From Variovorax paradoxus (lineage in GTDB: Bacteria; Pseudomonadota; Gammaproteobacteria; Burkholderiales; Burkholderiaceae_C): a stretch of 64,000 nucleotides of DNA. The DNA lies in NCBI RefSeq assembly GCF_029919115.1, contig NZ_CP123990.1, positions 1,178,001 through 1,242,000 of the forward strand, read 5' to 3'. This document shows, in pieces, positions 6,769 to 40,991 of this stretch. Positions within the stretch are counted from its first letter, which is position 1, and the number at the start of each line of letters is the position of its first letter. A model generated the notes under the pieces. The model was given only the letters and a program-made list of their open reading frames with translations, did no database searches and was not told the origin of the DNA. Both the position numbers and the translations under genes were made by a program.

Positions 6769-7430
6769 GCTACGTCACGCATGCGGACCTGGGCGGCCAG
6801 CCGGGCTACGGGCCGGTCACGCCCGAGCCCGAAGGCGAACTCTTCCACGCCGGCTGGGAGCCGCGCGCGCTGGCGCTCACGCTTGCCATGGGCGCAACCG
6901 GTTCCTGGAACATCGATGCGAGCCGCGCCATGCGCGAGACGCTGCCGAACTACCGCAACCTGAGCTACTACCAGATATGGCTTGGGGCGCTGGAGCAGCT
7001 GATGCTGCAGCGCGGGCAGGTTTTTGCCGACGAGGTCGCGACCGGCGAGATGCGCCACGCGGCCGCGCCGGTTCCCCGTGTGCTGCACGCCCAGAACGTG
7101 CCCGTGGTGCTCGCCAAGGGTTCGCCTACCGAGCGCGCCGCGCCGGGCCCCGCGCGCTTTGCCGTCGGGCAGGCCGTGCGCATGCACATCGGCAAGGCCG
7201 ACTATCACACGCGGTTGCCGGGCTATGTGTGGGGCAAGCGCGGCACCATCGAACATGTGCACGGCGCACATGTGTTTGCCGATGCGAATGCGCAGGGTCT
7301 CGGTGAACAGCCGCAGTGGCTCTACACGGTCGTCTTTGAGGAAGCCGAACTGTGGGGCGATGCGCTGCCGCGCCAGAACCTCTCGGTGTCGGTCGATGCG
7401 TGGGAAAGCTACCTGCAGGCCGCCCCATGA
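6765..7430 (+). CDS. nthB: Nitrile hydratase, beta subunit
   Basis: A 221-aa beta subunit that pairs with the alpha subunit to form the nitrile hydratase heterodimer and active-site channel. Recognisable parts are the N-terminal [11 protein letters not shown], the helical [18 protein letters not shown] and the C-terminal SH3-like barrel ([47 protein letters not shown]). Its start overlaps nthA and its stop overlaps the accessory gene, each by ATGA, so the three are translationally coupled in a 1:1 arrangement. Length is normal for the family. Confidence 0.96.
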
Positions 7431-7801
7431 AGATCGACATGCCACCGCTCGCGCTCGCTCCCGGCATGCCGCGCGATGCCGATGGCCCGGTGTTCCGCGA
7501 GCCGTGGGAAGCGCAGGCTTTTGCGATGACGCTCGCACTGCACGAGCGCGGCCTGTTCAGCTGGGTGGAGTGGGCCGAAGCCCTTGCGGCCCAGATCTCC
7601 GCCGCGCAAGCCGCTGGGGACCCGGATGCTGGCGACACCTATTACCGGCATTGGCTTGCTGCACTCGAAGGCCTGGTGGCCCGCAAGGGCGCGAGCTCGG
7701 GCGACGAACTCGCGCGCTACCGCCACGCCTGGGACCACGCGGCCGACCGCACGCCGCACGGCCAGCCGATCGAGCTGCGCGGCGAAGACTTTCCACGTTG
7801 A
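7427..7801 (+). CDS. Nitrile hydratase accessory protein (cobalt-loading type)
   Basis: A 124-aa protein of the nitrile hydratase accessory family, which resembles the N-terminal half of the beta subunit. Visible landmarks are GPVFREPWEAQAFAMTLAL, FSWVEWAEALAAQI and TYYRHWLAALEGLV. In cobalt-type enzymes the homologous activator delivers cobalt to the alpha subunit by exchanging partners, so this is probably the maturation factor. It overlaps nthB by ATGA and ends the three-gene operon, directly before the REP-like pair. Confidence 0.92.
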   Translation: MKIDMPPLALAPGMPRDADGPVFREPWEAQAFAMTLALHERGLFSWVEWAEALAAQISAAQAAGDPDAGDTYYRHWLAALEGLVARKGASSGDELARYRHAWDHAADRTPHGQPIELRGEDFPR

Positions 7802-7813
7802 GGATTTGTCTTG

Positions 7814-7923
7814 CTCCTTCCCCCGCTGGGGGAAGGTTGGGATGGGGGCTGCCCCGCATCCATCTCAGCGCGGGGTTGAAGGCCGCTTGCCCCCACCCCG
7901 GCCCTCCCCCGGGAGGGGAGGGA
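7814..7923. repeat. Inverted pair of REP-like palindromic units
   Basis: Two GC-rich units of about 35 bases face each other between the nitrile hydratase genes and a convergent gene. Unit one (7814-7849) reads CTCCTTCCCCC then GGGGGAAGG then GGGATGGGGGC. Unit two (7889-7923), read on the minus strand, has the same order: TCCCTCCCC, GGGGGAGGG, GGGGTGGGGGC. Each unit contains its own hairpin, and the two together can pair over nearly their whole length. This resembles BIME/REP arrangements and may also act as a bidirectional terminator. A related hairpin lies at 60068-60094. Confidence 0.65.
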
Positions 7924-7939
7924 GAAATATCCGCCGGCC

Positions 7940-9382
7940 CTAAACGCGGATCACGCGGCCCGGGTTCAGGATGTTCTTGGGGTCGAGCCCGCGCTTGATG
8001 GCGCGCATCATCTCCAGCGCCACGGGCGACTTGTGCTTCTCGAGCTTGTCGACCTTGAGCGAACCCACGCCATGCTCGGCCGAGAACGAGCCGCCGAACT
8101 TCTCGACCGCGTCGTACACCAGTGTGTTGATGCGCTCTTCCTCATTCTTCAAAAAGGCCTTGGCGTCGATGTTCTCGGGAGCCTGCACGTTGTAGTGCAG
8201 GTTGCCGTCGCCCAGGTGGCCGAAGTTCACCAGCCGCACGCCCGCAATTTCGCGCGCCAGCAGCGCATCGGTCTCGGCCACGAAGGCCGGAATGCGCGAA
8301 ACGGGAATCGAGATGTCGTGCTTGATGTTCAAGCCCTCTTCGGCCTGCGCGAGCGGAATGCTTTCGCGGATGTGCCAGAGCTGGTGCGCCTGCGCAAGGT
8401 TCTCGGCCACCACCGCATCGGTCACGCAGCCGTCTTCGAAAGCCGTTTCGAGCAATGCCTCGAAGCGTGCGCGCGCATGGTCTTCGGATTCGCTGTCGGA
8501 GTTCTCGAGCAGCACGCAGTACGGCACGGCTTCGTCGCCGATGAAGGGCACGCGCAGTTGCGGCATGTGCTTGTCGACCAGGCTCAGCGCAAACTTGCCC
8601 ATCACTTCGAAGCCCGTAAGGCCCGAGCCCAGATGCTTGTGCGCCAGGCCCAGCAGCGTGACCGCGTGGTCGAGCGAGGGCACTGCGGCCCAGGCCGTGA
8701 GCTGCGCCGCGGGCAGGGGGTAGAGCTTCATCGTCGCTGCGGTGATGATGCCCAGCGTGCCTTCGCTGCCGATCATCAGGTCGCGCAGGTCGTAGCCGGT
8801 GTTGTCCTTGCGCAGGCCGCTGGTGCCTTCCCAGATTTCGCCTTGCGGCGTGACCACTTCGAGGCCCAGGCACAGATCGCGCGTGTTGCCGTAGCGAACC
8901 ACCTGCGTGCCGCCGGCATTGGTGGCAAGGTTGCCGCCGATGGTGCAGCTGCCTTCGGCGGCAAGGCTCAGCGGGAACAGAAAGCCCTGTTTCTCCGCCG
9001 TCTCCTGCAGCGTCTGCAGGATGCAGCCGGCCTCCACCGTCATCGTGAGATTGGCCGCATCGACGGTGCGAATCGCGTTGAGCCGCTGCAGGCTCAGCAC
9101 CACCTGGGTGCCGCTGTCGTCGGGAATGGAACCCACTGCCAGCCCGGTGTTGCCGCCCTGCGGCACGATGGCCGTGCCGGCCGCGGCGCAGGCCTTGACC
9201 ACGTCGGCCACCTGCTGCGCGTTGGCGGGCCGCACCACGGCCAGCGATTTGCCGCGCGCGCGCTTGCGCCAGTCTTGCTCGTAGGCCGCAAGGTCGCCTT
9301 CGTTCAGCACATGCTGCGCACCGACGATGTCGCGCAGCTGGTCGATGAGGGGAGCGGAAGAAGAGGTCGTCGTTGACGTCAT
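7940..9382 (-). CDS. FAD-linked 2-hydroxyacid oxidase/dehydrogenase (GlcD/D2HGDH-like)
   Basis: A 480-aa flavoprotein of the VAO/GlcD superfamily that oxidises D-2-hydroxy acids such as D-lactate, glycolate or D-2-hydroxyglutarate. The FAD-binding motif PQGGNTGL, the SLAAEGSCTIGGNLATNAGG loop, IGSEGTLGIIT and the C-terminal cap with NFGHLGDGNLHYN and SAEHGVGSLK are all present. The last contains the metal/substrate-binding His typical of this group. The exact substrate cannot be read from sequence. The ATG overlaps the stop of the upstream DUF2069 gene (ATGA). Confidence 0.93.
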   Translation of the reverse strand: MTSTTTSSSAPLIDQLRDIVGAQHVLNEGDLAAYEQDWRKRARGKSLAVVRPANAQQVADVVKACAAAGTAIVPQGGNTGLAVGSIPDDSGTQVVLSLQRLNAIRTVDAANLTMTVEAGCILQTLQETAEKQGFLFPLSLAAEGSCTIGGNLATNAGGTQVVRYGNTRDLCLGLEVVTPQGEIWEGTSGLRKDNTGYDLRDLMIGSEGTLGIITAATMKLYPLPAAQLTAWAAVPSLDHAVTLLGLAHKHLGSGLTGFEVMGKFALSLVDKHMPQLRVPFIGDEAVPYCVLLENSDSESEDHARARFEALLETAFEDGCVTDAVVAENLAQAHQLWHIRESIPLAQAEEGLNIKHDISIPVSRIPAFVAETDALLAREIAGVRLVNFGHLGDGNLHYNVQAPENIDAKAFLKNEEERINTLVYDAVEKFGGSFSAEHGVGSLKVDKLEKHKSPVALEMMRAIKRGLDPKNILNPGRVIRV

Positions 9383-35290: not shown

Positions 35291-36166
35291 TCAGCCACGC
35301 AAGGTTTGGGCGTGGTGGGCGAGGTGGTCCGCCATGAAGGTCTGGATGAAGTAGTAGCCGTGGTCGTAACCCTCGTGGCGGCGCAAGGTGAGCGGCTGGC
35401 CCGCGGCAAAGCAGGCGGCCTCGAAGGCTTCCGGGTACAACTGCTCGGCAAGGAATTTGTCGGCCAGGCCCTGGTCGATCAATATGCCTTGCGGATACGG
35501 CGCGGCGGTCTGCGATTTCATGAGCGCGCTGGCGTCGTGCGCAAGCCATTGGGCACGGTCGCCGCCGGGCTCTCCCAGGTAGCCGCTGAACGCCTTTTCG
35601 CCCCACGGGCATTGCGTGGGCGCGCAGATGGGCGCAAATGCCGAGAGCGACTTGAACCGTCCCGGGTGCCGCATTGCCAGCGTGAGCGCACCGTGGCCGC
35701 CCATCGAATGGCCGAAGATGCCAAGGCGCTGGTCGTCGACCGCGAAGTGCTTTGCCACGAAGGGCAGCAGCTCATGCACGATCCAGCTTTCCATGCGCCA
35801 GTGGGCGGACCACGGGGCCTCGGTCGCGTCGAGGTAGAAGCCCGCGCCAATGCCGAAGTCCCAGTTGGCCGTGGCGCCGGGCAGGCCTTCCACGGTGCTT
35901 CCGCGCGGGCTGGTGTCGGGAGCGATCAGCGCCAGGCCCAGGCTGGCCGCCATGCGCTGCGCGCCCGCCTTCACAGCAAAGGTTTCTTCGTTGCAGGTGA
36001 GCCCTGCAAGGTAAAGCAGGGCCGGCACGCGCTCGTGGGCGGCTTGCGGCGGCAGGTAGACCGAGAAGCGCATCGGCAAGCCGATTTCGTGCGAGGCATG
36101 CTCGTGAAAGCTTTGCACGCCGCCGAAGACATGGTGCTCGGAAAGGGTCTTGAAGATGTCGGTCAT
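35291..36166 (-). CDS. fghA: S-formylglutathione hydrolase
   Basis: A 291-aa esterase-D type hydrolase that releases formate and glutathione from S-formylglutathione, the second step of glutathione-dependent formaldehyde oxidation. The nucleophile is S154 in GIFGHSMGGHGA. LLYLAGLTCNEETF, DTSPRG and the catalytic His in GYDHGYYFIQTF are characteristic. It is translationally coupled to an alpha/beta hydrolase (ATGA) and lies in the same series as the formaldehyde dehydrogenase and the Rieske oxygenase genes upstream. Confidence 0.96.
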   Translation of the reverse strand: MTDIFKTLSEHHVFGGVQSFHEHASHEIGLPMRFSVYLPPQAAHERVPALLYLAGLTCNEETFAVKAGAQRMAASLGLALIAPDTSPRGSTVEGLPGATANWDFGIGAGFYLDATEAPWSAHWRMESWIVHELLPFVAKHFAVDDQRLGIFGHSMGGHGALTLAMRHPGRFKSLSAFAPICAPTQCPWGEKAFSGYLGEPGGDRAQWLAHDASALMKSQTAAPYPQGILIDQGLADKFLAEQLYPEAFEAACFAAGQPLTLRRHEGYDHGYYFIQTFMADHLAHHAQTLRG

Positions 36167-37089
36167 CGGGAGTTGTTGTTGGGCTGCAGTGCGGGCACCA
36201 GTTCGAGTACGGCGTCTGCAAAGATGCGAGACGCCTCTTGCGGCATGTTGTGGCCCACGCCGGGCACCAGCCGGTGCGAGCGTGGTCCGCTGAACCGGTG
36301 CGCGTGGGCAGAGGCTTCGGCGGGCGGACGCACGCCATCGTCCAGGCCGTCGAAGGTGATGGTGGGCACCGATATCGCAGGCTGCGCGGCCAGGCGGCGT
36401 TCGATGTCGGCGTAGGCCGGGTCGCCCGCCACCAGTCCGAAGCGGTGGCGGTATGAATGAATCACCACCTCGACGAAGTCGGGGTTGTCGAAGGCTGCGG
36501 CGCTGCGCTCGAAGGTCGCGTCGTCGAACTTCCACGTGGGCGACCACAGTTGCCACAGCAGGCGGGTGAGCGCCTTGCGGTCCTTCGCCAGCCCGGCCCG
36601 GCCGCGCTCGCTGTGAAAGTAGTACTGGTACCAGAGGCTGTGTTCGTTCGCGGGCGTGTCGGGCTCCATCGCTCTGGCGATGTCCTGGATGTTGTAGCTG
36701 TTGAACGAAACGAGGCCTGCGCAGCGCTCGGGCCAGAGCGCCGCCACCACGCACGCCGCGCGGCCGCCCCAGTCGTAGCCGGCGAGCACCGCGCGCTGGA
36801 TGCCGAGTGCGTCGAGCAGCGCGAGCAGGTCGGCCCCGAGCGCGGCCTGCTCGCCGGAGCGCGGCGTGGCATCGCTCAGGAAGCGCGTGCCACCGTAGCC
36901 TCGCAGGTAGGGCACGATGACGCGGCAACCCTTGTCGGCGAGCATCGGCGCCACTTCGGCGTAAGTGTGAATGTCGTACGGAAAGCCGTGCATCAGCAGC
37001 ACGGGTGGGCCGTCGGCGGGCCCGGCTTCGTAATAGGCGATTTCGAGAACGCCCGCCTCGATCTTGCGCAAGGGCTCCATGCGGTTCAT
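36163..37089 (-). CDS. Alpha/beta hydrolase, epoxide/haloalkane hydrolase-like
   Basis: A 308-aa alpha/beta hydrolase whose nucleophile is aspartate, in AGYDWGGRAA, as in epoxide hydrolases and haloalkane dehalogenases. The oxyanion motif LLMHGFPYDIHTY and the catalytic His in GVGHNMPQEA are present. It sits between adhC/frmA and fghA, separated by 22 bases from the first and overlapping the second by 4. This placement suggests a link with formaldehyde metabolism or with the oxygenase product, but no substrate can be named. Confidence 0.9.
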   Translation of the reverse strand: MNRMEPLRKIEAGVLEIAYYEAGPADGPPVLLMHGFPYDIHTYAEVAPMLADKGCRVIVPYLRGYGGTRFLSDATPRSGEQAALGADLLALLDALGIQRAVLAGYDWGGRAACVVAALWPERCAGLVSFNSYNIQDIARAMEPDTPANEHSLWYQYYFHSERGRAGLAKDRKALTRLLWQLWSPTWKFDDATFERSAAAFDNPDFVEVVIHSYRHRFGLVAGDPAYADIERRLAAQPAISVPTITFDGLDDGVRPPAEASAHAHRFSGPRSHRLVPGVGHNMPQEASRIFADAVLELVPALQPNNNSR

Positions 37090-37111: not shown

Positions 37112-38218
<1,107 letters not shown>

Positions 38219-38269: not shown

Positions 38270-38908
38270 TCAGGCCGGGCCGGCAGCAAAGATACCCGAC
38301 ATTCCGATGAAGCCGGGCAGATGGCGAAAGTCCCACACCCAGCTTCGCAGCGCAGGGTATTCGTCCAAAGGGATGCCGCCTTCGCCGGCCAGCGCCACAT
38401 AAGGAAAGCAGGCCAGGTCGGCCACGGTGGCGTGTTGCCCGACCAGCCATTGCAGGCCTTCGCAGGCGCGCTCGGCCAGGTGGTCGTCCAGCAAACGAAA
38501 GGCCGCATGAGCGCCGCGCCGGCAGGCTTCGATGTCGAGATTTTCGTAGCCGAACGCGTCGTGCAGCCGGGCCGCCGATGCGGTGCGGGTAATTTCATCG
38601 GCGGTGGCGAACCACATCGCGATCTGGCCCTGCAGCTGTGGGTCGTCCGGGTACCAGCGGCGCCGTGCGTCGTACTTGCTCGCAAGATAGACAAGGATGG
38701 CTTGCGCATCGCGCAGCACTAAGCCGTTGTCGTCGATCACCGGAATCTGCCCCAGCGGATTGACGTGCGCGAGAAACGCGGCCGACTTGTGCTCGCGGCC
38801 GGGGTGAAAGTCGACCGGCACGCTCTGGTAGCCGAGGCCCAGCCAGGCCAGCATTTGCCGCACCTTGAAGCAGTTGCCGGAAAGGGCGTAGTCGTAGAGC
38901 TTGATCAT
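38270..38908 (-). CDS. GST-like protein associated with a split Rieske oxygenase
   Basis: A 212-aa protein with the GST fold: N-terminal IKLYDYALSGNCFKVRQML, NPLGQIPVIDDNGLVLRDAQAILVYL split over the cis-Pro loop, and a helical C-terminal domain with ATVADLACFPYV. Its ATG overlaps the stop of the Rieske-less oxygenase gene (ATGA), implying a fixed ratio. In caffeine-degrading Pseudomonas, the GST-like NdmE is a structural partner of the Rieske-less oxygenase NdmC, and this gene may play the same role. A catalytic GST role is the alternative. Confidence 0.92.
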   Translation of the reverse strand: MIKLYDYALSGNCFKVRQMLAWLGLGYQSVPVDFHPGREHKSAAFLAHVNPLGQIPVIDDNGLVLRDAQAILVYLASKYDARRRWYPDDPQLQGQIAMWFATADEITRTASAARLHDAFGYENLDIEACRRGAHAAFRLLDDHLAERACEGLQWLVGQHATVADLACFPYVALAGEGGIPLDEYPALRSWVWDFRHLPGFIGMSGIFAAGPA

Positions 38909-39768
38909 GCGGCTTGCCTCACGCCAAAGCGCATGCCGCGCTCGCGCAGCCAGCGCCGGTAGGTGACGGAGGTCGTGTCGCCGCGCGTCGGCGTCTCGGC
39001 GCGGCCTTCGAGCGGCATGCGCTTGAAGGCGTGGTTCTCGAGAATCGGCTTGTCCTGCCCGAAGATCGTCTGCTGGAATGCGATGAGCTCGGCGTCTGTC
39101 GAGGTGTCGTCGTAGCAGGCGAGCAGCGTGTGGGCGATCACGTGCTCGTCATCGAGCGGCTGCAGGAACAGCGCAATGGCATCGAGCTCACCGGCGCGGT
39201 GGCTCGACTTGTAGAGCATGGCCGTGAGCGGCTGCATGACGCGGTATTTGTACGTTACCTCGGCGCCGCTGTCGTGGGCGGCCGAGGCGCGGGGCTGCCA
39301 GAAGCGGCAGTCGGTGGCCCAGATTTCCTGGGTGGCCGGGTCGACTTGCACCTGGTACTTTGCCACCTCGGTGTGCGGCACCTTGCCCAGGAAGCCGGCG
39401 TGCACGAAGGGGAAGTGCGCCATGTCCAGAAAGTTCTCGATCACGCGCAAGCCCGATACGGCCACGCCGATGCTGCCGCAGTCGACCATGCGGCGCCCGG
39501 GTTCGCCATATTCGGGAAAGTCGAACAGGGGCCGCGCCGGCTTGCCGCTTGGGCAGACCCAGAGGTAGCCGTAGCGTGACTGGATGGCCAGCGTTTGCGT
39601 GCCGAGCCGGCACTGCGGTGCACCGGCCGCGTCGCTCCACACGTGCAGTGTTTCGCCGAGCAGGCGAGTCGTGCGGGGCTGCGCATCGGAGCTGCCGGCG
39701 AGCGTCGTCGAAGGGCCGACGACCAGCCAGTCGTCGAGCATGTTGGGATCGTCTGTGATGAAGGGCAT
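38905..39768 (-). CDS. Rieske-type oxygenase catalytic subunit lacking the Rieske cluster
   Basis: A 287-aa protein with the mononuclear non-heme iron domain of ring-hydroxylating/demethylating oxygenases. Iron ligands fit D115-x2-H118-x4-H123 in ENFLDMAHFPFVHAGFLG. The N-terminal 80 residues resemble the Rieske scaffold (MLDDWLVVGPSTTLA, then SRYGYLWVCPSG), but the whole cluster-binding part with CxH and CxxH is missing. The protein jumps from PQCRLGTQT straight to the closing strand. The cluster is supplied, presumably, by the neighbouring Rieske protein. This matches the organisation of NdmC. Substrate unknown. Confidence 0.93.
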   Translation of the reverse strand: MPFITDDPNMLDDWLVVGPSTTLAGSSDAQPRTTRLLGETLHVWSDAAGAPQCRLGTQTLAIQSRYGYLWVCPSGKPARPLFDFPEYGEPGRRMVDCGSIGVAVSGLRVIENFLDMAHFPFVHAGFLGKVPHTEVAKYQVQVDPATQEIWATDCRFWQPRASAAHDSGAEVTYKYRVMQPLTAMLYKSSHRAGELDAIALFLQPLDDEHVIAHTLLACYDDTSTDAELIAFQQTIFGQDKPILENHAFKRMPLEGRAETPTRGDTTSVTYRRWLRERGMRFGVRQAA

Positions 39769-39776
39769 GGTTCTCT

Positions 39777-40475
39777 TCAGGCTGCCGATTGCGGTCGTCG
39801 ACTTTCTTCTTCTTCGATTTCGCTGCGGAGACCGCGTGCGGTGATGTGCAGCGTCTTCATTGCGGCGGTGCCGGGCGCGGCATCTGTCCAGAGGTGAATG
39901 AAGGCCAGCCGTGGTTGTGCATCGAGCACCAGTGCCACTGTGCCGTAGTGGCCGAGCGGCCCGTGCCACGCCGCCGTCGTTGCGGTGTCGCTCGCAAAGC
40001 CGCGCCGGGCGAGTGCATCGCGCACGCTTGCCGCATCGGCGCGCACGGCGAGCGTACGGCAGAACGACCAGCCGGCGGGCACGACGTCGTCTTGCGGCGG
40101 GGCTTGCGCGGCCTCGCCAGCGAGGTTCACCCACAGCATGCCCGCTGCATCCACGGCGCTGAACACCTTCGCGCACAGGTTGCTTGGCGGCGGCATGCCG
40201 GGATGTGCGGGAATGCTCATGCACTGCCCGCTGCCGGCGGCGTACTGCCAGCCGTGGTACGCGCAGGAGAGGCGGTTTTCCGCCACCTGCCCGAGCGTGA
40301 AGCGCACGCTGCGGTGGGGGCAGCGGTTCTCCCATGCCTGCGGTGCGCCATCGGCCGAACGCCAGAGTGCAAGCTCCTGTCCCCGGGCAAAGCCTGCAAC
40401 GATGTTGGCGCCGGGGCGCACATCGGCCGAACGGGCCACCGGATGCCAGGCTGAAATGCTGTCTGCGCTCATCAT
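39777..40475 (-). CDS. Rieske [2Fe-2S] protein partner of the split oxygenase
   Basis: A 232-aa protein. Residues 8-118 are a complete Rieske domain with ligands C52, H54, C71 and H74 (NRCPHRSVRF and SCAYHGWQY; CxH-x16-CxxH). The remaining 115 residues have no iron site or reductase domain and no motif I recognise. The gene ends 8 bases before the Rieske-less oxygenase, so the two probably form one functional oxygenase. Unlike NdmD there is no fused reductase, and the electron donor is unknown. Start at 40475 or 40472 (MM); AAGG lies 11 bases upstream. First gene of the series, divergent from aroQ. Confidence 0.92.
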   Translation of the reverse strand: MMSADSISAWHPVARSADVRPGANIVAGFARGQELALWRSADGAPQAWENRCPHRSVRFTLGQVAENRLSCAYHGWQYAAGSGQCMSIPAHPGMPPPSNLCAKVFSAVDAAGMLWVNLAGEAAQAPPQDDVVPAGWSFCRTLAVRADAASVRDALARRGFASDTATTAAWHGPLGHYGTVALVLDAQPRLAFIHLWTDAAPGTAAMKTLHITARGLRSEIEEEESRRPQSAA

Positions 40476-40550: not shown

Positions 40551-40991
40551 ATGAAAAAAATACTCGTCCTCAACGGCCCCAACCTCAACCTGCTTGGCAC
40601 GCGCGAGCCCGAGCAATACGGACGCGACACGCTGGCCGACGTCGAACGCCTGTGCAAGGACGCCGGCGCCGCGCACGGTGTGGAAATCGAGTGCCGCCAG
40701 TCCAACCACGAAGGCGTGCTGATCGACTGGATCCATGAGGCCGGCCGCGAGGTGGCCGCGGGCAACATGCTGGGCGTGGTGATGAACCCCGGCGCTTACA
40801 CGCACACATCGATTGCGCTGCACGACGCCATCAAGGGCGCAAGCGTGCCGCTGATCGAACTGCACATCTCGAACGTGCATGCGCGCGAGGAGTTTCGCCA
40901 CCGCTCGTACATTTCGCCGGCGGCGCGCGGCATCATCGTCGGCCTGGGCGTGAAAGGCTACGCGCTGGCCATCGCGGCGCTGGCGCCCTGA
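40551..40991 (+). CDS. aroQ: Type II 3-dehydroquinate dehydratase
   Basis: A 146-aa shikimate-pathway enzyme that dehydrates 3-dehydroquinate. It has the N-terminal [16 protein letters not shown], catalytic Y23 in [13 protein letters not shown] and the catalytic H105 in [17 protein letters not shown]. Length is the dodecameric type II norm. It is divergent from the Rieske gene and separated from it by 75 bases containing the hairpin GCGCTA-AGG-TAGCGC at about 40482-40496. Confidence 0.97.

Follow-up and report, generated by a model that had tools for sequence, protein, structure and literature searches.

A probable split Rieske oxygenase of the NdmCDE type with an unfused Rieske protein in Variovorax paradoxus

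Gene layout and metal sites

Three adjoining genes of Variovorax paradoxus, here called the triad, encode a Rieske protein (P1), an oxygenase subunit with a mononuclear iron site (P2) and a protein with the glutathione transferase (GST) fold (P3), which together are probably a split Rieske oxygenase related to NdmCDE (Table 1). The triad lies in a stretch of 64,000 nucleotides (nt) of contig NZ_CP123990.1, referred to as the window, from a genome of 5.81 Mb in one contig. Pfam assigned a Rieske domain to P1, VanA_C, the oxygenase catalytic domain, to P2, and GST_N and GST_C to P3. There are 8 nt between the P1 stop and the P2 start, and the P2 and GST genes share 4 nt at 38905-38908, the overlap that had been reported in an earlier reading made from the sequence alone (the sequence-only reading). 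That reading had also placed the Rieske and mononuclear-iron domains on separate neighbouring proteins, a layout confirmed by the coordinates, the Pfam matches and the conserved ligands.

Table 1. Features of the triad and its surroundings in the window (aa, amino acids; HMM, hidden Markov model).
Feature	Position	Strand	Basis
P1: Rieske [2Fe-2S] protein, 232 aa, counterpart of the N-terminal half of NdmD	39777..40475	-	Pfam; comparison with NdmD
P1 residues 7-119: intact Rieske domain with C52, H54, C71, H74	40119..40457	-	Pfam PF00355; ligands in 72/72
P1 residues 120-232: putative reduced catalytic domain without iron (earlier 'unknown extension')	39780..40118	-	HMM-HMM; AlphaFold2 model with Foldseek/VIA-align
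P2: NdmC-like mononuclear-iron oxygenase subunit, 287 aa	38905..39768	-	44% to P. putida NdmC over 276 aa; PF19112
P2 residues 1-60: Rieske remnant without cluster-binding lobe	39589..39768	-	HMM-HMM 98.6%; superposition on SxtT
P2 residues 61-287: catalytic domain; H118, H123, D239; bridging D115	38908..39588	-	Pfam, homologue alignment, model
P3: NdmE-like glutathione-transferase-fold protein, 212 aa	38270..38908	-	55% to NdmE; GST_N/GST_C Pfam
frmA: S-(hydroxymethyl)glutathione dehydrogenase, 51 nt downstream of GST	37112..38218	-	synteny, annotated counterpart; named by eye
alpha/beta hydrolase gene within frm block	36163..37089	-	synteny; named by eye
fghA: S-formylglutathione hydrolase	35291..36166	-	synteny, annotated counterpart; named by eye
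aroQ, divergent, upstream of P1; marks cassette site	40551..40991	+	beside frmA in triad-less loci; named by eye

The cluster motif and the iron triad, which stand together in a single-chain alpha subunit, are divided over P1 and P2. The four cluster ligands of P1 (C52, H54, C71 and H74) are invariant in 72/72 aligned homologues, and D115, H118, H123 and D239 of P2 in 69/69. The iron site had earlier been read as D115, H118 and H123; these residues are indeed conserved, but on the usual Rieske-oxygenase pattern we take the ligands to be H118, H123 and, as the third, D239, with D115 as the bridging aspartate. Decay of the locus into pseudogenes was rejected because the ligand columns are fully conserved. 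We note apparent frame breaks, either sequencing errors or decay, in the P2 gene at one related locus (L029, genome G029) and in the unsplit oxygenase gene at another (L168, G485).

P2 has no counterpart to residues 60-64 and 68-110 of an unsplit relative (L063), the segments that make up the cluster lobe, in agreement with the sequence-only reading that the cluster-binding part of its Rieske scaffold is missing. The N-terminus of P2 nevertheless matched the start of the Rieske domain with an HMM-HMM probability of 98.6% and a score of 75.8 (mean 10.0 and maximum 14.9 in 100 shuffles), and residues 3-284 of the predicted model superpose on residues 1-334 of SxtT. As judged from these comparisons, P2 is a subunit that retains the Rieske scaffold without its cluster lobe.

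Nature of P1 and its extension

The region that follows the Rieske domain of P1 had been described as an unknown extension of 115 residues that set the locus apart from the known system. This did not hold, as an equivalent region is present in NdmD, between the Rieske and reductase parts, and in P1 proteins of many genera, so that a domain unique to this locus was rejected, and the region resembles a reduced catalytic domain. In the AlphaFold2 model of P1, Foldseek and VIA-align aligned residues 4-232 to Rieske oxygenases. The HMM-HMM score of the extension reached 30.2 against a maximum of 20.1 in 150 shuffles, a clear result that came only from the wider set of 93 rows; with an earlier set of 35 P1 and NdmD sequences, cut at other points, the probability was 55% and the match lay mostly on the shared final strand of the Rieske domain. 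Pfam searches of the extension, with eight proteins and the 72 rows of the P1 alignment A4 (46 of the 50 usable P1 loci; L212, L225, L236 and L238 were left out), returned only scattered weak matches. That the extension is a shrunken, iron-less oxygenase catalytic domain is well supported by the predicted fold and the profile comparison.

One alternative is that P1 is a diffusible Rieske ferredoxin feeding P2, with no mixed oligomer and an extension that serves some other purpose. We consider this very improbable, as P1 scored 2e-27 by sequence to SxtT compared with 1e-3 to the ferredoxin of naphthalene dioxygenase, its 232 aa include a second folded domain that matches a catalytic domain, and P2 has no cluster of its own. 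In the Rieske-domain tree, where the ferredoxins are represented by two rows only, labelled by the length of their open reading frames (ORFs), P1 and NdmD fall on one side of a branch (91/85, 94% of 200 bootstrap trees, not starred) among the oxygenase alpha subunits. Three P1-type proteins (P0145, P0205 and P0247) carry the database name 'Methylxanthine N1-demethylase NdmA', a label that is misleading because P1-type proteins have no iron site.

Their sequences and models suggest that P1 and P2 go back to the same oxygenase alpha subunit and have degenerated in complementary ways. Gene fission was rejected as their origin; duplication would fit better because each protein retains a remnant of the part that it is missing.

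Relation to NdmCDE and other Rieske oxygenases

NdmCDE of Pseudomonas putida CBB5, the 7-methylxanthine N7-demethylase, was compared through its homologues in P. putida MT178, whose NdmA matches the NdmA fragment in the PDB at 91%; ndm clusters were taken from plasmid records of this strain, Paraburkholderia caffeinilytica CF1, Klebsiella, Sinorhizobium meliloti and Komagataeibacter nataicola. The analogy with NdmC, NdmD and NdmE drawn by the sequence-only reading proved to be true homology, P2 being 44% identical to P. putida NdmC over 276 aa, P3 55% identical to NdmE over 212 aa and P1 38% identical to the N-terminus of NdmD. The window shares with NdmCDE a cluster-less catalytic subunit, a Rieske part supplied in trans, a GST-like partner, formaldehyde genes nearby and the extension after the Rieske domain. 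In NdmD, however, the Rieske part is fused to an FMN/NAD/plant-type [2Fe-2S] reductase, whereas P1 stops after the extension, unfused as had been seen earlier, and the reductase half is missing from the locus. Because a fused NdmD was looked for and not found, the layout is a variant of NdmCDE and not NdmCDE itself. The earlier description as a three-component demethylase or hydroxylase stands as far as the NdmC/D/E-type components go, but it left the reductase out of the count and none is present in the locus. The gene order of P. caffeinilytica (NdmC, NdmD, NdmE, frmA, fghA) compares with P1, P2, GST, frmA, hydrolase, fghA in the window; the oxygenase pair is reversed and the order is otherwise the same except for the hydrolase. 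The family itself is already known, since a review lists ndmCDE homologues in 18 organisms, mainly Sinorhizobium and Mesorhizobium (PMC4408171), and in one source a P2 homologue from Variovorax is already labelled 'putative methylxanthine N7-demethylase NdmC'.

Among solved structures, SxtT and GxtA come closest to P1 as well as to P2 in both sequence and fold, but they carry both metal centres on a single chain; we know of no GST partner for them. The xanthine hydroxylase HpxD is a purine Rieske oxygenase with an adjoining VanB-type reductase gene; it is unsplit, distant from P2 in the tree and has no GST annotated within 5 kb on either side. Closer in layout are split clusters with a stand-alone reductase gene (L157, L159, L235 from Piscinibacter caeni, L251, and L068 from K. 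nataicola), all of which have separate P1, P2 and GST genes as in the window and the first four of which fall in the window's own P2 clade. Unlike the window, L157 and L159 also carry NdmA (65-70%) and NdmB (59-60%), L251 has an NdmB-like gene and L068 an NdmA-like gene.

Distribution and architecture

The three genes lie side by side in 17 of 37 genomes of the genus (that of the window and 36 relatives), which excludes a chance arrangement; among these loci, the contig ends inside the GST gene in one and the P2 frame is broken in another. The frmA gene follows GST in 15 of the 17, the exceptions being one contig end and one other neighbourhood. As aroQ directly adjoins frmA in 7 of 13 triad-less Variovorax frmA loci, the triad can be regarded as a cassette heading a formaldehyde operon, which also occurs in the genus with no triad in front of it; its presence and absence are compatible with gain or loss alike. 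A P2-like match, split or unsplit (E <= 1e-45), was found in 11/399 genomes across the order and 22/299 across the family. A scan of the window with Rfam at gathering thresholds gave no match, and a promoter and terminator scan gave 1 and 3 sites against shuffle means of 0.5 and 4.7.

Co-occurrence was surveyed in the best 80 of at least 574 relatives, with one genome per species. A Rieske subunit and a GST were both present in 69/80 stretches, within 1.5 kb of each other in 68 and at 1.9 kb in the last. The other 11 comprised four with P1 at the edge and no GST, two with GST and no P1, and five with neither, and the genomes of all 11 have a P1-like gene and an NdmE-like GST gene side by side, with P2 at whatever distance. 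Both genes are therefore present in the genomes of 80/80 sampled split loci, and homologues of the catalytic protein that regularly lack them, which would have spoken against the three-gene association noted earlier, were not found. Conversely, a GST match (E <= 0.01) occurred near 0/9 unsplit relatives (L063, L165 and L167-L173; 16-20 kb read), a set in which L168, with its frame break, was kept although it was left out of trees and profiles. Occurrence with 80/80 split and 0/9 unsplit loci provides a comparative reason to regard the GST as an assembly factor.

Another possibility is that the GST is catalytic, making a glutathione-formaldehyde adduct or passing it to FrmA, rather than holding the complex together. 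Its gene lies directly before frmA, a position kept in most of the Variovorax triad loci, and the SGNC motif of its N-terminal domain is retained; however, the GST is absent near the unsplit relatives, and in many rhizobial stretches it lies beside P1, away from P2 and with no frmA in the stretch. A review and a genome paper likewise give NdmE no known catalytic role (PMC4408171; PMC8055839), and we hold a catalytic function to be quite unlikely. The active-site motif pattern is missing in 42/71 GST ORFs. We note that ecdysteroid synthesis in insects involves both a GST, Noppera-bo, and a Rieske oxygenase, Neverland, which may be a parallel to GST-dependent Rieske oxygenases.

P1 was unfused in 62 of the 80 loci and, as in NdmD, joined to a reductase in the other 18. 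The 62 comprise 55 stretches and seven that were resolved, whose frames of 239-302 aa leave no room for a reductase; all these counts are biased because the sample was ranked by likeness to the unfused-type sequence. The unfused Rieske protein looks to be widespread and no oddity of this locus. A separate reductase gene lies between P2 and GST at L157 and L159, the reductase is fused to P2 at L060, L161 and L062 (and, by position only, L061) and to P1, NdmD-like, at L163 and L164, and no reductase is present in the stretch at the window, L154-L156, L158, L160 and L162. Loci L113-L123 were outside the analysed set.

Several individual loci deserve mention. At L060:9485-11341 (618 aa) and from L161:8424 onward (604 aa), a whole VanB-type reductase is C-terminal on the catalytic subunit, the reverse of NdmD. 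A natural intermediate of 397 aa at L166 (G274, about 7100-9105) comprises, by eye, a Rieske domain, the extension and a plant-type [2Fe-2S] domain with no flavin or NAD domains. On a plasmid of K. nataicola from kombucha, two split sets adjoin each other (L068:15467-20927), the second with its own P2-like and GST genes and a Rieske protein in which the second cluster cysteine is replaced by glycine (LEGVYHGW). At L066:9986-14246, and also at loci such as L192, L193, L221 and L248, a single NdmD-like gene and a single GST gene accompany two different P2/NdmC-like genes.

Evolutionary history

A tree built from 59 chosen catalytic domains places every split sequence on one side of a branch (99/100) and needs a single change to account for the split, which in this tree arose once; alignment A5 covered 41 of the 80 loci, 14 of which were left out of the catalytic tree. 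The fusions of P2 to a reductase form one clade. NdmD-type rows, two unfused rows and L166 form a 20-row group (92/90), which is nested together with other unfused rows in a group of 30 (86/82; neither branch is starred), and unfused rows also branch elsewhere. Because the tree, rooted on NdmA, NdmB and HpxD, nests NdmD-type rows among unfused ones, the split probably came first and the fusion later, the unfused state of the window being the older.

Discussion

We propose that P1 docks on P2 with its cluster in the gap left by the lobe that P2 lacks, separated from the iron by a single bridging aspartate (D115), and that the two form a neighbour pair like adjacent subunits of an ordinary Rieske oxygenase. 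In such enzymes the cluster of one subunit is about 12 Å from the iron of its neighbour (PMC12445004). The NdmE-like GST would secure this assembly. The complex would receive electrons from NAD(P)H by way of a VanB-type reductase (flavin and plant-type [2Fe-2S]) whose gene lies elsewhere, and the P2 iron would hydroxylate an N-methyl group, most likely at N7 of a methylated purine by analogy with NdmC. The hydroxylated product would break down to release formaldehyde, which FrmA and FghA would oxidise with glutathione. Taken as a whole, a split Rieske oxygenase of the NdmCDE type that demethylates an N-methylpurine is the best explanation, and a likely one. That P1, P2 and GST form a split complex is highly likely; that the complex performs demethylation is probable, if less firmly so; and an N7-methylpurine, suggested by analogy, has about an even chance of being the substrate.

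A number of findings weigh against this explanation. The HMM-HMM probability of the P1 extension was moderate (34-50%), fell to 5-8% once the NdmD rows were removed, and was 1.6% against unsplit catalytic domains (score 18.0, shuffle maximum 16.2). There is no reductase match within the window, and the genome has four strong VanB-type matches, none linked to the locus, although a reductase must be encoded elsewhere because the locus is without the reductase half of NdmD. The best of these, C1:4029501-4030463 (G000), is present in 17/17 triad genomes compared with 8/20 others of the genus (Fisher p 7e-5), but the genomes are related and two control reductases in a 23-genome subset lean the same way (8/9 compared with 6/14, and 8/9 compared with 8/14); it is a candidate partner only. 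Leaving aside the pieces in P1 and P2, the best full-length match to NdmA in the genome was 34%, with no separate search for NdmB. In contrast to the caffeine pathway, we therefore expect no more than one demethylation, at N7 or similar, and not full caffeine degradation. Finally, frmA is found in only 18/80 sampled stretches and the frm block is present in other Variovorax without the triad; the formaldehyde genes are for that reason weaker evidence than they look, and they were rejected as proof of demethylation. No oxygenase partner was noticed in the stretch around the candidate reductase (L109:3742-11633; G000 C1, about 4025741-4033632), where the genes resemble, by eye, those for an NMT1-type transporter protein, a RutR-like regulator and a cytosine-deaminase-like amidohydrolase.

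The distribution of the frm genes would also fit a hydroxylase acting on an unmethylated purine or similar ring, as HpxD does on xanthine, with the frm genes as mere housekeeping neighbours. BMP-type transporter genes occur in 48/80 stretches, HpxD is annotated as a xanthine hydroxylase, and the unsplit relative at L063 adjoins purine-deaminase-like genes. Yet P2 groups with NdmC and not with HpxD, and relatives in its own clade sit with NdmA/NdmB, so we regard a hydroxylase as unlikely and favour demethylation. The L063 oxygenase itself (L063:8259-12340) lies between adenosine, 8-oxoguanine and guanine deaminase-like genes, by eye, a hint of purine substrates.

For the family as a whole, we lean towards a scheme in which NdmCDE and its unfused relatives derive from a duplicated oxygenase subunit, one copy (P1/NdmD) having lost the iron site and the other (P2/NdmC) the cluster lobe. 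Activity would then need a mixed pseudo-homo-oligomer locked by a GST-fold protein that is found only with split systems. The reductase would have been tied in later in at least three ways, as a free gene, fused to P1 as in NdmD or fused to P2, with the window representing a version that has no dedicated reductase.

The three components were already known, and a review calls NdmCDE very unique among Rieske oxygenases (PMC4408171). Three points appear to be new: that the unfused layout is common and probably the older form, what the extension is, and that the split state goes together with the GST. No description of them was found in the literature searched, where few subscription papers were covered. 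The structure of the NdmCDE complex is still unsolved according to a paper of May 2026 (PMC13237722), and the present comparison provides a testable model of its assembly. In this model the region of NdmD between the Rieske and reductase parts is a degenerate form of an oxygenase domain, and NdmC is expected to pair with NdmD in the manner of adjacent oxygenase subunits. The small unfused proteins and the natural intermediates are offered for structural work, and since the two metal centres are on different proteins that can be exchanged, electron transfer from Rieske cluster to iron could be studied across a protein-protein interface.
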